Below are positions 11,157 through 37,721 of a stretch of DNA of 64,000 nt, piece by piece; within the stretch, counting starts at the first letter, position 1; every line of letters starts with the position of its first letter. The stretch is from positions 257,330-321,329 of the forward strand of contig NZ_FNOG01000008.1 of NCBI RefSeq assembly GCF_900106525.1. The letters are read 5' to 3'. Source of the DNA: Lysobacter enzymogenes. GTDB taxonomy: Bacteria; Pseudomonadota; Gammaproteobacteria; Xanthomonadales; Xanthomonadaceae. The notes beneath the pieces were generated by a model. That model was given only the letters and a program-made list of their open reading frames with translations, searched no databases and was not told the origin of the DNA. The position numbers and the translations under genes were made by a program.

Positions 11157-11328
11157 TTATCCACAGACGCGGTTTATCCACAGCCTCGGCCGCAGGGCGG
11201 TCGAGGCGGCGGAGCGCCCGGCTTGTCTTGTGGATAACACCGTTGTGGATAAGCCGGATGGCCGCTATCGCCTTGTGCAGCCTGGCTTTCCGGTTTTTTA
11301 TCCGGCGCTTGTACCGTGCTTATCCACA
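11157..11328. promoter_or_regulatory. Cluster of five perfect DnaA boxes
   Basis: The exact 9-mer TTATCCACA occurs at 11157-11165, 11174-11182 and 11320-11328 on the plus strand, and at 11229-11237 and 11244-11252 on the minus strand. Five exact copies in 172 bp of intergenic DNA are far beyond chance in a 70% GC genome. The cluster sits between the zinc-ribbon gene and an MFS gene, about 10 kb from the dnaA-dnaN intergenic region. Confidence 0.8.
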
Positions 11329-21177: not shown

Positions 21178-21928
21178 TCCGCAGCGCCCGTTCCGCGGGC
21201 GCCGGCCTCGGCCTGGGATGCGCGGCAGCGCCGACGGCGCGATCCCGACATCGCGCTGGCGGCTGCGTCGCGCGGCCCGCGCCCAGCTGGCGCCGCCTTC
21301 CGGCTCCGAGCCGGCGAACCGGCCGCGAATTCTCGCCAGGCGAACGGGCCAGCGGCTCGTTTGCGTAGGGCGGCTCCTGCCGGCATCCACGACGACGAGC
21401 GCAACGCAGGGCACGGCCGTCCGGTCGCCGCGCTGCCGTCCGCGCTCATCCGTAGAGATCGCAGGACCGCGGCTGCAGGGCCGAGCGGTGTTTCGTCGTT
21501 GGCGGTATCGCGCGGTCCGGGCAGAACCGGCTTATCCACAGCATGCGCAGTGCGCAGCGGCGGGTTCGAAGGGTTCGGTCCAGGTTCGGTGTCGCTGCCG
21601 GCGGTTTGGGGTCCGCAAGGGACGCCGCGCTGCCGGTGGACACAAGGTAGTCGCTAAGTTGCTGATACGAAAGGCATAAGTTCGGGGACTAGACTCGTAC
21701 AAGCTGTGGATAAAGTTGCGGCCGCGACCACGCGCTGAGGTTATCCACAGGATCTACCGGTCCTCCAGGGCCAGTTCTACCCGCTTTTGAAGTACCGAAA
21801 AACGCTTGTAGATCAAAAGCTTAAGCCTGTTTTCAACCGTTTTTCGCCGCTCCACCGCCACTAAGATTTTGATTTATACATCTCTTTTGTAATTGGGCTT
21901 GCGCCCACCGACCGGCCAAGGGGTCCGC
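21178..21928. other. Candidate replication origin (oriC), dnaA-dnaN intergenic region
   Basis: This 751-bp gap has three exact DnaA boxes: TTATCCACA at 21532-21540 and 21741-21749 (plus), and TGTGGATAA at 21705-21713 (minus). Downstream, 21785-21895 is the most AT-rich stretch of the neighbourhood (runs such as GATCAAAAGCTTAA and GATTTTGATTTATACA), a good candidate for the unwinding element. The first ~350 bp (21178-21530) is GC-rich with no recognisable gene. Position, boxes and AT-rich element together fit an oriC of the Xanthomonad type; the dnaN promoter must also lie here. Confidence 0.75.
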
Positions 21929-23029
21929 ATGCGTTTCAGCCTGCAACGCGAAGTTTTTCTCAAGCCGTTGGCCCAAGTGGTCAATGTCGTCGAACGCCGG
22001 CAGACGTTGCCGGTCCTCGCTAACCTGCTGGTACAGGTGAAAGACGGCCAGTTGTCGCTGACCGGCACCGACCTGGAAGTCGAAATGATTTCCCGCGTCA
22101 ACGTCGACGACGCGAAGGACGGCGAAACCACGATCCCGGCGCGCAAGCTGTTCGAAATCGTGCGCGCCCTGCCCGACGGCAGTAAGGTCACCGTGAGCCA
22201 GGCGGCCGAGAAGATCACCGTGCAGGCCGGGCGTTCGCGCTTCACCCTGTCGAGCCTGCCGGCCAACGACTTCCCGTCGATCGACGAGGTCGAAGCGACC
22301 GAGCGCGTACGCGTGCCGGAAGCCGCGCTCAAGGAGCTGATCGAACGCACCGCGTTCGCGATGGCCCAGCAGGACGTGCGCTATTACCTCAACGGCTTGT
22401 TGTTCGACCTGCGCGAAAACAGCCTGCGCTGCGTCGCCACCGACGGCCACCGCCTGGCGCTGTGCGAAGCGCCGTTCGAAGGCGGCGCGCAGACCAAGCG
22501 CCAGATCATCGTGCCGCGCAAGGGCGTGCAGGAACTGCAGCGCCTGCTCGAAGGCGGCGATCGCGAAGTCGAGCTGGAAATGGGCCGCGGCCACATCCGC
22601 ATCAAGCGCGACGATGTGACTTTCACCAGCAAGCTCATCGACGGCCGTTTCCCCGACTACGAGGCGGTGATTCCGATCGGCGCCGACAAGGAAGTGCGGA
22701 TCGAGCGCGAAATCCTGCGCGCGTCGCTGCAGCGCGCGGCGATCCTGTCGAACGAGAAGTACCGCGGCGTGCGCATCGAAGTCTCGCCGGGCCAGCTCAA
22801 GATCAGCGCGCACAACCCGGAGCAGGAAGAGGCGCAGGAAGAAGTCGAAGCCGACACCAAGGTCGACGACCTGGCGGTGGGCTTCAACGTCAACTACCTG
22901 CTCGACGCCCTGACCGCGCTGCGCGACGAGCACGTGGTGCTGGCGCTGCGCGACGCCAACTCGTCGGCGCTGGTGCGCGAGGCCTCGAACGAGCGTTGCC
23001 GTCATGTGGTGATGCCGCTGCGGCTCTGA
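21929..23029 (+). CDS. dnaN: DNA polymerase III beta sliding clamp
   Basis: This 366-residue protein forms the ring-shaped processivity clamp. It starts MRFSLQREVFLKPLAQVVNV and shows RQTLPVLANLL, LRCVATDGHRLAL and the C-terminal RHVVMPLRL that ends nearly all clamps. The length equals that of E. coli DnaN. ATG 21929 is used because the upstream 12 in-frame residues are not conserved. A terminator and a parS site follow immediately. Confidence 0.98.
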   Translation: MRFSLQREVFLKPLAQVVNVVERRQTLPVLANLLVQVKDGQLSLTGTDLEVEMISRVNVDDAKDGETTIPARKLFEIVRALPDGSKVTVSQAAEKITVQAGRSRFTLSSLPANDFPSIDEVEATERVRVPEAALKELIERTAFAMAQQDVRYYLNGLLFDLRENSLRCVATDGHRLALCEAPFEGGAQTKRQIIVPRKGVQELQRLLEGGDREVELEMGRGHIRIKRDDVTFTSKLIDGRFPDYEAVIPIGADKEVRIEREILRASLQRAAILSNEKYRGVRIEVSPGQLKISAHNPEQEEAQEEVEADTKVDDLAVGFNVNYLLDALTALRDEHVVLALRDANSSALVREASNERCRHVVMPLRL

Positions 23030-23048
23030 TCCACGCCGCAACGCTCGC

Positions 23049-23062
23049 GTTCCACGTGGAAC
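23049..23062. promoter_or_regulatory. parS centromere site 1
   Basis: The perfect palindrome GTTCCACGTGGAAC matches the ParB-binding parS consensus of gammaproteobacteria. It lies just after the dnaN stop and before the dnaN terminator hairpin. Confidence 0.85.
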
Positions 23063-23067
23063 AAAAC

Positions 23068-23100
23068 ACACGCCCGGCTGATGCCGGGCGTGTTCGTTTT
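23068..23100 (+). terminator. Rho-independent terminator of dnaN
   Basis: ACACGCCCGGC (23068-23078) pairs with GCCGGGCGTGT (23083-23093) around a 4-base loop, followed by TCGTTTT. Confidence 0.85.
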
Positions 23101-23146
23101 GGGGTTTCGAAGCGTTTTCGACCGCCGCGGAAGGTTCCTGAGCGCC

Positions 23147-23313
23147 CTGTAGGAGCGGCGCGAGCCGCGACAAACCGAAGAAATTCACTTCCGCGTCGGT
23201 GCCGAAGTGGTTGATCTGAAAGCGAAAGCTTTAGATCTGGTGGTTTTGTAGCTTCGGTTGCCCCGCTGACGCACGCCGCTTCGGTTTGTCGCGGCTCGCG
23301 CCGCTCCTACAGG
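23147..23313. repeat. REP family A inverted pair between dnaN and recF
   Basis: Two oppositely oriented copies (about 23147-23171 and 23288-23313) of the GCGCCGCTCCTACAG family flank about 115 bp of unrecognised sequence. The 360-bp dnaN-recF gap holds only these, parS 1 and the dnaN terminator. Confidence 0.75.
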
Positions 23314-23389
23314 TAGCCCATGCGGCTCCATCCAGGTCTCGGCCCATCCCGCCGCCCCGCCCCCGAACCAATCTGCGATCATTTCCCCC

Positions 23390-24475
23390 ATGCACGTAAC
23401 CCGCCTGGACGCCCGCGGCCTGCGCCGCTTCGCCGACGTGAGCCTGTTGCCGGCGCCCGGGATCAACCTGATCACGGGCGAGAACGGAGCGGGCAAGACC
23501 AGCCTGCTCGAAGCCCTGCACCTGATGGCCTACGGCCGGAGCTTCCGCGGCCGGGTCCGCGATGGGCTGATCCGCGCCGGCGATCCGGCGCTGGACGTCT
23601 TCGTCGAATGGCAGGAAGCTCGCCGCGACCAGCGGCGCAAGGCCGGGTTGCGCCATAGCGGGCACGAGTGGGCCGGGCGCCTGGACGGCGCCTCGGTTTC
23701 CCAGCTCGGCGAGCTTTGCGCCGCATTGGCGGTGGTCAGTTTCGAGCCAGGCAGCCATGCCCTGATCACCGGGCCCGGCGAAATTCGCCGTCGCTACCTC
23801 GATTGGGGTTTGTTCCACGTGGAACCAGACTTCACTCCGCTGTGGCGGCGCTATACCCGGGCGCTCAAGCAGCGCAACGCCCTGCTCAAGGCGCGGGCCC
23901 GCGATGGGCAGCTCGATGCCTGGGATCGTGAGCTGTCCGACGCCGGCGAGCCGCTGAGCCGGCGCCGCCAGCAGTACCTGGACGAACTCCAGCCCCGTTT
24001 CGCCGCCTTCGCCGCCGAATTGGCCCCGGGCCTGGGCGCGATCCGGCTCGATTACGTCCCCGGCTGGCGCCGCGACGAGTTTCCGCTGGCCGATGCCCTG
24101 CTCCTGGCCCGCGAACGCGACCAGCAGCAAGGCTTTACCTCGGTCGGGCCGCATCGGGCCGATTGGCGCATCGGCTACGGGTCGATTCCCGGGCGCGAGG
24201 CATTGTCGCGCGGGCAGGCCAAGCTGGTCGCCCTGGTCGCGCTGCTGGCCCAGGCCGAGCAGCACGCCCAGGTGCAGGGCGAATGGCCGGTGATCGCGCT
24301 GGACGATCTGGCCTCCGAGCTGGACCGGCGCCATCAGCGACGGGTTCTGGAGCGGCTGATCGCCAGCCGGGCCCAGGTTTTCATCACGGGCACCGAACCG
24401 CCCGTGGCGCTGGCCGATATGCAGGTCGAAGTCACCAGGTTCCACGTGGAACATGGAACATTGCAGGCGGGGTGA
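23390..24475 (+). CDS. recF: DNA replication and repair protein RecF
   Basis: This 361-residue SMC-like ATPase loads RecA at gaps. It has Walker A GENGAGKTS (residues 30-38), signature LSRGQAKL and Walker B VIALDDLASELD, and the usual length. Two parS palindromes are embedded in the coding sequence, where they are translated as FHVE in DWGLFHVEPDF and TRFHVEHG. E. coli RecF has different residues at these spots, so the residues may be constrained by the parS sequence. It begins 360 bp after dnaN and probably has its own promoter. Confidence 0.97.
   Translation: MHVTRLDARGLRRFADVSLLPAPGINLITGENGAGKTSLLEALHLMAYGRSFRGRVRDGLIRAGDPALDVFVEWQEARRDQRRKAGLRHSGHEWAGRLDGASVSQLGELCAALAVVSFEPGSHALITGPGEIRRRYLDWGLFHVEPDFTPLWRRYTRALKQRNALLKARARDGQLDAWDRELSDAGEPLSRRRQQYLDELQPRFAAFAAELAPGLGAIRLDYVPGWRRDEFPLADALLLARERDQQQGFTSVGPHRADWRIGYGSIPGREALSRGQAKLVALVALLAQAEQHAQVQGEWPVIALDDLASELDRRHQRRVLERLIASRAQVFITGTEPPVALADMQVEVTRFHVEHGTLQAG
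23812..23825. promoter_or_regulatory. parS site 2 (inside recF)
   Basis: A perfect GTTCCACGTGGAAC palindrome within the recF coding sequence, read there as part of GLFHVEPD. Confidence 0.85.
24439..24452. promoter_or_regulatory. parS site 3 (end of recF)
   Basis: A perfect GTTCCACGTGGAAC palindrome near the 3' end of recF, read as RFHVEH. A degenerate copy (GGGCCACGTGAAAC, right half intact) follows at 24502-24515. Confidence 0.85.
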
Positions 24476-24539
24476 TTCACGCTCGGCATGGAACCTGGCA
24501 CGGGCCACGTGAAACACCTCGCGGCCGGCTCCACGACAT

Positions 24540-24553
24540 GTTCCACGTGGAAC
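24540..24553. promoter_or_regulatory. parS site 4
   Basis: A perfect GTTCCACGTGGAAC, and also a perfect 16-mer TGTTCCACGTGGAACA at 24539-24554. It lies in the recF to DUF5694-like intergenic region. Confidence 0.87.
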
Positions 24554-24630
24554 ACGCTGCAGAACCGGCCTCTAAACCCCAAGAAGCCGCCGCGCATCCC
24601 TTCGAAGCGAACCACTCCAGGGATGACCGC

Positions 24631-34190: not shown

Positions 34191-34595
34191 ATGGCCGTTT
34201 CCGCGTATTCCGCTGCTGGCCGTTTCCGCGACGAGACCGTCGCCGAGATCAATGTGACCCCGCTGGTCGACGTGATGCTGGTCCTGCTGATCATCTTCAT
34301 GGTGACCGCGCCGGCGCTGACCGGGCAGCTCAAGGTCAGCCTGCCCATCACCACCCCGATCGATGTCGTGGACCCGCCGAAAGCCGAGTTGAGCGTGCAG
34401 CAGGACGGCAGCTTCGTGCTCGATGGCCGGGCGATGACGCGCGCGCAACTGTCGGCCGCGCTGTCAGCGCTCGCCGCCGAGCATCCCGACCTGGCGTTGA
34501 GCGTCGACACCAATGCCGATGCGGACTACCAGGCCTTCGCGCAGGCGTTGGCCACGGCGGACGCGGCCGGGATCCGTAATCTGTCGACGAGGTAA
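34191..34595 (+). CDS. Third ExbD/TolR family protein
   Basis: This 134-residue protein again has the [19 protein letters not shown] helix with the motor aspartate and an ExbD periplasmic domain (ELSVQQDGSFVLDGRAMTRA), but it lies 213 bp beyond the tonB operon terminator and has its own terminator. It therefore probably has separate expression. No exbB partner is adjacent; it may pair with the ExbB upstream. An AAGGATGGAGG stretch before ATG 34191 is a good ribosome-binding site. Confidence 0.88.
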   Translation: MAVSAYSAAGRFRDETVAEINVTPLVDVMLVLLIIFMVTAPALTGQLKVSLPITTPIDVVDPPKAELSVQQDGSFVLDGRAMTRAQLSAALSALAAEHPDLALSVDTNADADYQAFAQALATADAAGIRNLSTR

Positions 34596-34684: not shown

Positions 34685-36719
34685 TTGTCCACAGCGTTGC
34701 GATGGGCGATGTCGGCTTCGCATGTCGTGGCAGGTCCGGCGCGGCAGCGACGACATGGGCGCGACTGGCGGGACTTGTCCACAGCATCGTCGCTGTGGAT
34801 CCACGCGAGAAGCGCGGAATGCCCGATCTACCCTTCCGACGCGATCGCGATTTGTCCACAAGCGGAGCTCCGCTGAAGTGGACGAGCGGGATATCCACAG
34901 TCGTTCGGAGTGTGGACAGGTCTAGAGTCTGGACCTGCCCCGCTCAATTCGGCTGCGCTGTGCATAAGTGCGGCGTGCTCGCATGGAGGCAGTAGCTGGG
35001 CGCTCATGGCCGGAGAACTTTGTTGTCCACAGGCGCGATGTCGTAGCCCGATGCTGCAGCGAACAAACGGCATCGCGCCCAGGTGCGGCACCTGCCTTTG
35101 AAATGAAACGGCAAGGCAGCCGGCAACTGCGAGGTGTTGATAAGTCGTCGCGTTCCTGCTGCCGCAAACGCTCACACGCACCGCGCGCGCAAGAACGCAT
35201 CGATGCGCGTTGTCCACAGAGGGCTACGCCGCCGTCGTTCGCGTCCGGCCTCGGGATACGCCACCGGACGGCCGCAACACAGCGTGTGCCTCGAACAGTT
35301 GTCCACACCGATGCCGGCCTCCTAGAAAAAGCGAGAAAAACGCCTGAATTTGGTGGGTTTTGTGATGCCCGCGCGAAGACTTATGACAAGACTTGTCCAC
35401 AAGGCAGTACAGCGGCCGCAGCCGCGACGGGCCGGCGGATGCGGCACGTCGATGAGCAGTGCATCGCAGGATGTAGCGGACACTTGTCCGAATCTGTCGT
35501 GACGGCGATGGCGGCGGTTCTCGCGGCGCCGCGCGGTGGCTGGGGATTGTCCACAGCGTGGACGCGACCGCTGCGCACGCGCGCTGCCTTGTCAGTGGGC
35601 GCCGGCTGCGCGGCTGGCCTGGCTCGTTGGTCTATTTGTCCACAGAGGTATTGCATCGCCCCTGGTCGCTCGCTCGCGGGTCGGGCGTTGTCCACAGGTG
35701 CAACTACGAACGGGGCTGTGTCTTAGCGACGCTATCTTTCGGGCCGGCGATACCGCGCGGCAATCAGCGGATCTGCCGAAGCGCGCTTTATCCACATGTC
35801 GCACAGAGCGGCGATGCCGCTGGCCTAGGCGACCGTACAAGTGGAGATTCGCGCGAGATCGCTTTGTGCAGCTACGCCTTTGCATCGTCAGCCGCGCTTA
35901 TCCACAAATGCTGGTGGAAGCGTCGGCGCTGCGTGGCTGCTCAATGCTTCTGCATCATGTTCGAAACGGCGCGACACGATGATGCGAGCGAGTTCGTCGT
36001 TGTCCACAGGGATGATTCGAGCGCCGTCGAAATCCTATCCGACGTGGGTTGTCCACAAGTGCGTCTTCGGTGTTCGCAGGGTGCGGGTACGACTCGCAAC
36101 GATGTTGCTGTAGAGACTTGTCCACAAGCGAATCGGTGCGACGCCCGCGCGAGCGAATCTTCTCGTCGCGGGCGCGATCGCCGAATCGAACGTGCGAGCG
36201 ACGCGCGCAGTTTGTCCACAGATACCGCCTTACGCGCGTATCGCGTCCAAACGCTTGGTGCGCGCTGGTTGGCGAATTCGGCACACGTACTTGTCCACAA
36301 GACATTCGCATGGTCGCCACCGCGTTGTTTGCGAATCTGTGTGCAATGCGGTTGTCCACAAGTCGTATCGCGGCACCTGTTTGTCCACAGCACTCGCGGA
36401 GCGTGTCGCGGGAGCGTTGCGGCATGTGCGCAGCGCCGATGGCGAGCAATCGTTTATCCACAGAACGTCGGCGATGCTACGGCCGCATGCGTAGTAGTGA
36501 TGCGTGCGTCGTCGGCGGTGGACATCGCACCGAAGCGAGCTACCGATCACGCGCGACTGGCTTATCCACACGTGTCGAATCGAATCGCCCGTGACGGGCG
36601 CGGATACGCGAGAGGCAGCGTTGTCGAAAACCCGCTTGTCCACAGGCGCGCCGAGTCGAATACGTCGACACGCACGATTCCGCGCAGCGGCGAGTCGTCG
36701 CGCATACCAGTTGTCCACA
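34685..36719 (+). promoter_or_regulatory. Array of 23 exact DnaA boxes in gene-free DNA
   Basis: The 2,260 bp between the third exbD gene and pdxJ contain no believable gene. They hold 19 copies of TTGTCCACA, starting at 34685, 34775, 34852, 35023, 35210, 35299, 35393, 35547, 35636, 35688, 36000, 36049, 36118, 36212, 36291, 36352, 36381, 36636 and 36711, and four of TTATCCACA, at 35788, 35898, 36454 and 36562. All 23 are on the plus strand, usually 50-110 bp apart, and the DNA between them is not repeated. Single-mismatch sites occur at 34891, 34911, 34959, 35135 and 36787. The region is visibly less GC-rich than its surroundings, with an A/T-rich patch at 35324-35366. TTGTCCACA is the preferred box of DnaA in high-GC actinobacteria. 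Likely roles are DnaA titration, replication timing or part of the origin. Confidence 0.88.
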
Positions 36720-36855: not shown

Positions 36856-37611
36856 TCAGCGACTGGCCGCCATCACCGCCAGATAGCCGCGCACCGTCGC
36901 ATCGAGGCCGTCATACAGCGCCTCGCCGATCAGCGCATGGCCGATCGACACCTCCAGCACGTTCGGCACGGCGCGCAGGAACGCGCCGAGGTTGGCCTGG
37001 CTCAGGTCGTGCCCGGCGTTGACGCCGAGACCGACGGCCTGGGCGCGGCGGGCGGCGGCAGCGAATTCGGCCAGCGCGGTGCTGGCGTCGCCGGCGGCGA
37101 AGGCCTCGGCGAACGGGCCTGTGTACAACTCGACCCGCTGCGCGCCGAGCTCGGCCGCGCGCTCGATGCCGTCGCGGTCGGCGTCGGCGAACACGCTGAC
37201 GCGGCAGCCGAGTTCGCGCAGTTCGGCGATGCGCGGCCGCAGCGCGGCGGCGTCGCGTTCGAAGTCGAAGCCGTGGTCGGAGGTGAGCTGGTCGTCGCCA
37301 TCGGGCACCAGCGTCGCCTGCGCCGGGCGAGCGCGTCGGCACAACTCGAGCAGGCCGGGGTAGCCGGCGCGCGGCGGCGCGAACGGGTTGCCTTCGATGT
37401 TGAACTCGACGCCGCGTGCGTGGGCGAGTTCGGCCAGCGCGTAGACGTCGTATTCGCGGATGTGGCGCGCGTCGGGGCGCGGGTGCACGGTGATGCCGTG
37501 GGCGCCGGCGTCGAGGCAGGCGCGCGCGGCGCGGACCACATCGGGTTCGGACCCACCGCGCGAATTGCGCAGCACCGCGATCTTGTTGACGTTGACGCTG
37601 AGGACGGTCAT
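36856..37611 (-). CDS. pdxJ: Pyridoxine 5'-phosphate synthase
   Basis: This 251-residue cytoplasmic TIM-barrel enzyme condenses 1-deoxy-D-xylulose 5-phosphate with 3-amino-2-oxopropyl phosphate to make pyridoxine 5'-phosphate, the vitamin B6 ring-closing step. Visible motifs are [40 protein letters not shown] and the C-terminal [19 protein letters not shown] 37611 is chosen over an in-frame TTG two codons upstream. It is convergent with the tonB region across the DnaA-box array; a minus-strand DnaA box (TGTGGACAA, 37677-37685) lies upstream of it. Confidence 0.96.
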
Positions 37612-37721
37612 GGCCAAAGCCTAGCGCGCACTGCGCGTAGCTGCGAGTGCGCAATCTGGCCGCCGTGGTCGCGGCCTGTGGACAAACGACGTGTGGCCGC
37701 GGGCGCGATGGCGCGCCGCGC

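Follow-up and report, generated by a model that had tools for sequence, protein, structure and literature searches.

A one-directional DnaA-box array in one Lysobacter clade may soak up DnaA and help set the start of replication

A single clade of Lysobacter carries, 13 kb from its likely replication origin, an array of exact DnaA boxes that nearly all read the same way and persist in number where the DNA between them has turned over. We studied the array in a 64-kb stretch of DNA (the window), where it comprises 23 boxes, and in related genomes. On balance, comparison of the boxes with their diverged surroundings favors the view that the array acts as a lineage-specific, origin-proximal DnaA-binding sink, which would titrate DnaA and would double right after initiation. 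Whether DnaA titration serves bacteria as a replication timer is an old question. In the available sections of PMC9640692, Berger and ten Wolde conclude that neither the number nor the affinity of sites can stop premature re-initiation at fast growth, that titration would prevent it only with origin-proximal sites, and that such placement does not fit E. coli. The features of the window are as follows.

11157..11328, strands + + - - + box by box: second box cluster, made up of five TTATCCACA, upstream of an MFS gene and 8.5 kb before dnaA
19735..21177, + strand: dnaA (Pfam Bac_DnaA, Bac_DnaA_C, DnaA_N)
21178..21892, no strand: dnaA-dnaN gap, likely oriC, with boxes at 21532 (+), 21705 (-), and 21741 (+) and an A/T-rich 3' part
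21893..23029, + strand: dnaN (Pfam DNA_pol3_beta domains)
34191..34595, + strand: exbD3, left neighbor of the array (Pfam ExbD)
34685..36719, all on the + strand: array of 23 DnaA-box 9-mers, TTRTCCACA (exact word search)
35283..35530, + strand: conserved core of the array, about 250 bp (alignments of the five array genomes)
35324..35366, no strand: A-tract patch within the core, a poor candidate for an unwinding element (A/T content and alignment)
36856..37617, - strand: pdxJ, right neighbor of the array (Pfam PdxJ)

Exact TTRTCCACA occurs 38 times across the window, where 0.15 would be expected (at most 1 in any of 100 shuffles), in keeping with the estimate of a preliminary description that chance would supply far fewer than one in 2 kb. 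The array takes up 23 of the 38, and its makeup (19 TTGTCCACA and 4 TTATCCACA, all on one strand, at 34685 to 36719) agrees with that description in word counts and coordinates alike. It lies 13.5 kb past dnaA, inside the gap between exbD3 and pdxJ, which are convergent, their 3' ends facing one another across it. Mean box spacing is 92 bp, close to the 90 bp first estimated, with a coefficient of variation of 0.40, and is more even than random placement (none of 5,000 simulations was as even); evenness is not significant in G003 (P = 0.20), and box positions in the array genomes show no consistent helical phasing. Every repeat family with at least three copies in the window is centered on a box, and the box-less repeat pairs are short (11 to 20 nt), with two copies each. 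No tandem repeat of boxes was found in the window's copy of the array, which, for the window, upholds the earlier statement that it is not a simple tandem amplification. In line with the proposed lack of convincing genes, eight ORFs across the stretch have no Pfam match. Rfam gave no match at gathering score anywhere in the window, and sigma-70-like promoters (1 versus 0.4) and terminators (3 versus 1.8) in the array are at about chance level. The GC content of the gap, 63.1%, is lower than that of the right flank (73 to 74% at 37 to 39 kb), as had been described for both flanks, but higher than that of the left (59.5% at 33 to 34 kb). exbD3 is 79 to 82% identical to its counterparts in the four other array genomes; for exbD1 and exbD2 the figure is 93 to 100%.

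A search with a gapped-pair pattern matched 3 of 149 family genomes; because so strict a pattern cannot demonstrate absence, we read the gaps themselves, in 20 Lysobacter genomes (the window included) and in 20 genomes chosen from the 137 with a pdxJ match that belong to other genera of the family. Two of the 40 loci (L059 and L086) had no readable gap, which left 19 gaps from Lysobacter and 19 from other genera. The array is present in five of the former, the window's among them (G000, G003, G008, G014, and G018); in the other 14 Lysobacter gaps there is one box in G002 and none in 13, and the 19 readable gaps from other Xanthomonadaceae genera contain no exact box. The preliminary description had taken absence from close relatives as grounds against its reading; the array is missing from 14 of the 19 readable Lysobacter gaps and is kept throughout the monophyletic five. 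These five form one clade, with support of 100/99, in a tree of dnaN, recF, gyrB, and exbB whose rows are 18 of the 20 Lysobacter genomes and five from other genera (G009 and G017, with genes missing on their contigs, were left out). The last 105 aligned residues of DnaA are identical in the five array genomes, the sister pair G007/G019, and G004, with a one-residue difference in the remaining 10 array-less Lysobacter genomes of the tree. Since the array clade is monophyletic and the same DnaA C-terminal residues occur without the array, the change appears to lie in cis; the array was probably gained within one Lysobacter clade, for which a single gain suffices. A 21-mer of the core matched one record, Lysobacter sp. 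yr284, among 84,980 species genomes, a set from which near relatives of the window genome may be absent. A mobile or phage origin was considered and dropped, with no match of the core to phages or of the whole array to plasmids.

The array gaps of the five species hold 23, 13, 13, 13, and 12 plus-strand boxes. Together they contain 74 boxes on the plus strand, one of which sits in the end of exbD3 in G014, and 4 on the minus strand. In the trimmed gaps, TTGTCCACA is counted 53 times on the plus and never on the minus strand, and TTATCCACA 20 and 4 times; in raw plus-strand counts, exact TTRTCCACA occurs 73 times and the remaining one-base variants of TTGTCCACA 8 times. Five of the 10 genome pairs were compared for identity in the arms of the array, with five letter shuffles of each arm as the null. 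In four of these pairs (G000, G008, G014, and G018) the arms are 0.42 to 0.51 identical, versus 0.43 to 0.46 when shuffled; the right arms exceed the null by 0.03 to 0.07, a remaining trace of some ancestry or of the boxes. The closest pair, G008 and G003, has arms that are 0.68 identical. Between array genomes the dnaA-dnaN gap is 81 to 91% identical (81 to 88% in the four pairs with diverged arms) and gyrB, where measured, about 95%. Of the 23 boxes of G000, 12 align with no box of the other genomes and 7 align with one in three or four of them, so boxes appear to have been gained and lost while their number and direction persisted. Within the five-genome clade, this is the pattern that the preliminary description had asked of an alignment of the gap, with box number and orientation kept (12 to 23 plus-strand boxes) and spacers drifting, here to about shuffle identity, and exact 9-mers in arms so diverged bear out its impression that the boxes look selected. 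In G003 a box-bearing unit of 55 bp is repeated in tandem 4.1 times, which shows one route of box gain, and the one-way orientation may simply come from growth by tandem duplication.

Because the boxes are exact in diverged arms and so look selected, a large origin-proximal titration or timing locus, as first proposed for this site 13 kb from dnaA, seems the best reading of the comparison, and a box number that is kept at positions that mostly are not fits a DnaA sink. We infer that DnaA is the binder: the separate exact boxes would bind it and keep it away from the oriC between dnaA and dnaN. At the fork speeds of other bacteria, 13 kb is copied in about a minute or less. The array, lying near oriC, would be replicated very soon after initiation, so that the number of sites would double at once and free DnaA would fall; re-initiation would thereby be delayed, and the array would set the amount of DnaA that has to accumulate per origin. 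In excerpts of PMC4285127, TTGTCCACA is given as a high-affinity box in Streptomyces coelicolor and Mycobacterium tuberculosis. Parts of PMC4585315 and PMC13220808 describe DnaA-box clusters near oriC that repress untimely initiation in Bacillus and Streptomyces, and early initiation in Bacillus upon deletion of six clusters. It counts against a sink that plain titration needs neither a single orientation nor a core with non-box motifs and leaves both of these features unexplained.

The five TTATCCACA at 8.5 kb upstream of dnaA are present in four array genomes, and G003 has three plus-strand boxes there; seven array-less genomes lack any exact box over the 12 kb that precede dnaA. Among the 12 Lysobacter genomes that this check spanned, the cluster is seen only in the array clade. 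Hand counts over nine genomes, G003 not among them, put 38 of 64 (G000), 32 of 56 (G008), 35 of 58 (G018), and 30 of 56 (G014) of the genome's boxes within 30 kb of dnaA where the array is present, and 3 of 21 (G007), 2 of 28 (G019), 2 of 23 (G006), 2 of 19 (G004), and 1 of 25 (G001) where it is not. In G018, a 157-bp unit repeated in tandem 3.1 times, with a minus-strand TTATCCACA, lies some 22 kb to the right of the start of dnaA (L108:2443-2932). A more elaborate form of the sink, which we put forward tentatively, is a recently evolved titration timer: a retained oriC would be flanked by clade-specific clusters at -8.5 and +13 kb, box number, changed by tandem duplication, would set the threshold while spacers turn over, and orientation and core would reflect directional loading of DnaA from the core into the array.

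No other part of the array aligns over as long a stretch as the core. In each of the five array genomes the core boxes that correspond to 35299 and 35393 read TTGTCCACA, and the motif ACTTATGACAAGA-N-TTGTCCACAA around the second box is invariant. A dyad, CGGACACTTGTCCG, near 35478 in G000 is changed in G008 and G003; a further motif, GTGAC(G/C)GCGA(T/C)G, and a degenerate TTGTCCGAA accompany the two fixed exact boxes. The consensus for IHF is WATCARNNNNTTR; this expression has no exact match in the core or the whole gap of the five array genomes and does match the dnaA-dnaN gap in all five. The core of the five likewise contains no exact Fis consensus, as printed in PMC10380432. A structured RNA in the core was rejected: the nested hairpin that RNAalifold predicted shows some two-sided changes, but as a single strand the core of none of the five genomes folded better than its shuffles (z of -0.37 to 0.97), and the window had no Rfam match at gathering score.

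The main rival to a sink starts from this core, and we consider it unlikely, if deserving of attention: as at datA or the DARS sites, the core and a partner protein would assemble a DnaA complex that alters the nucleotide state of DnaA, with the outer boxes feeding or extending it. Two boxes shared unchanged by the five genomes, within the longest aligned part, suit such a site, since datA and DARS2, in the portions of PMC10380432 at hand, rely on fixed boxes together with IHF or with IHF and Fis. That exact IHF and Fis consensus sequences are absent from the core of all five genomes argues against it, however, as do the inconsistent box phasing and the lack of a clear second core copy in the window's own genome, where the next best match has an E value of 0.0014.

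The array could also be a replication origin, replacing or backing up the dnaA-dnaN gap, with the A-tract patch as its unwinding element; we judge this improbable. In Xanthomonas campestris the dnaA-dnaN gap is said, in work by Yen from 2002, to be the functional oriC. In all five array genomes this gap retains its A/T-rich 3' part and an opposed box pair, minus then plus, at a distance of 36 bp. Such a pair occurs in 20 of the 37 dnaA-dnaN gaps read; another 15 contain one exact box each, and the last 2 contain no box. TTGTCCACA and TTATCCACA interchange at one box of this gap among relatives. Just downstream, at 23048 to 24554, are four parS-like sites (consensus TGTTNCACGTGNAACA, 0 to 1 mismatch), just after dnaN, within recF, and just past recF. 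The box at 35299 has the A-tract patch on its 3' side, a placement like that at the E. coli R1 box, which speaks for an origin. The best 30-bp window, however, reaches 60 to 67% A+T in the array of the five genomes (57 to 67% in the core) versus 77 to 80% between dnaA and dnaN; in the window itself the figures are 63% for the array gap and 80%. Judged by A/T content only, the array thus lacks a strongly A/T-rich unwinding element next to its boxes, the A/T content of the patch varies among the array genomes, and its earlier nomination as an unwinding candidate looks weak. The Streptomyces oriC, with 19 boxes and the same preferred word (excerpts of PMC4285127), also speaks for an origin.

GC skew, which the preliminary description had proposed as a check, gave a divided answer. 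In G008, over -60 to +100 kb only, the cumulative minimum does fall at the array (-1240 at 16 kb), but it is nearly tied by -1229 at 28 kb; the value at dnaA-dnaN (2 kb) is -839. For the genes from dnaN to exbD1, which occupy the interval from dnaA to the array, fourfold-site skew is similar in array-bearing and array-less genomes, a comparison of little power, as leading genes average -0.065 (39 genes) and lagging genes -0.098 (35 genes), with a per-gene standard deviation of 0.12 to 0.16; a contrast of 0.03 is too small for skew to place a switch within 13 kb. Skew was therefore rejected as proof of a moved origin. With the dnaA-dnaN gap kept, the A/T content of the array weak, and skew uninformative, a moved or second origin at the array is not supported by these comparisons, nor was the suggestion that the array forms part of the working origin borne out.

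Facing box pairs occur elsewhere in these genomes. Between folP and miaA, tandem noncoding units of about 200 bp carry facing TTGTCCACA-N5-TGTGGAYA in all nine Lysobacter genomes examined, array or not, with 3 to 9 pairs per genome, and make up a candidate distal DnaA-box locus; four array genomes have a further set 57 to 69 kb from there, close to a PHB depolymerase gene. In G000 these pairs lie at C12:149.9-150.8 kb (L087) and C12:209.1-209.7 kb (L088); other such loci are L090 to L095 and L110 to L114. A single facing TTATCCACA-N5-TGTGGATAA pair is found in each of the nine genomes tallied (G000 C4:131799, G001 5612984, G004 4477513, G006 5579030, G007 1189938, G008 518757, G014 4446568, G018 456432, and G019 375369). 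The TTGTCCACA-N5-TGTGGACAA arrangement between folP and miaA could represent the palindrome of a dimer, and a protein other than DnaA might then read the 9-mer, but none of the window's array boxes has a paired half and the 9-mer is common to the dnaA-dnaN boxes, which makes such a reader very improbable. Least probable of all is a functionless, self-expanding repeat spread by tandem duplication of a box-bearing unit: it would account for the G003 repeat and the single orientation, but neutral boxes should decay like spacers, and a ratio of 73 exact boxes to 8 variants in arms at about shuffle level (four of five pairs) counts against it.

If the array is a titration timer, replication timing in this clade would have evolved through the number of sites in cis, with the DNA-binding region of DnaA unchanged. 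The clade appears to have the origin-proximal sites that theory calls for, in numbers from 12 to 23 and with the same DnaA DNA-binding region as sister species without the array, and its species, next to those sisters, form a natural series for relating the number of boxes to initiation mass and timing. The array is not named in the open-licence papers that were searched.

Among known systems, E. coli datA is likewise an intergenic DnaA-box locus beyond oriC that lowers free or ATP-bound DnaA, as we infer for the array. datA requires boxes 2, 3, and 7 and an IHF site (sections of PMC10380432 and PMC5835720), whereas the array has no exact IHF consensus and far more boxes. E. coli DARS1 and DARS2 are also noncoding and have a conserved core with DnaA boxes; the DARS core holds boxes I to III, and DARS2 uses IHF and Fis in addition (sections of PMC10380432), in contrast to an array core without exact IHF or Fis consensus, the arrangements being compared by description only. 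The Streptomyces cluster of Smulczyk-Krawczyszyn 2006, as relayed in part of PMC4585315, resembles the array in having TTGTCCACA boxes near oriC, and it represses untimely initiation, as the array may do; unlike the 19 boxes of the Streptomyces oriC (excerpts of PMC4285127), the Lysobacter array stands apart from a retained dnaA-dnaN gap. The Bacillus subtilis clusters of Okumura 2012, relayed in parts of PMC4585315 and PMC13220808, also lie near but outside oriC; there are six separate clusters in that species, and in Lysobacter a single 2-kb array of up to 23 exact boxes facing the same way, with a core, in one clade of another phylum. With its 23 boxes 13.5 kb from dnaA and a separate dnaA-dnaN gap, the array fits the class of consensus DnaA-box clusters near, and outside, oriC. 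The X. campestris oriC reportedly has the same gene neighborhood; the window keeps the equivalent gap and has the array in addition, 13 kb from it.
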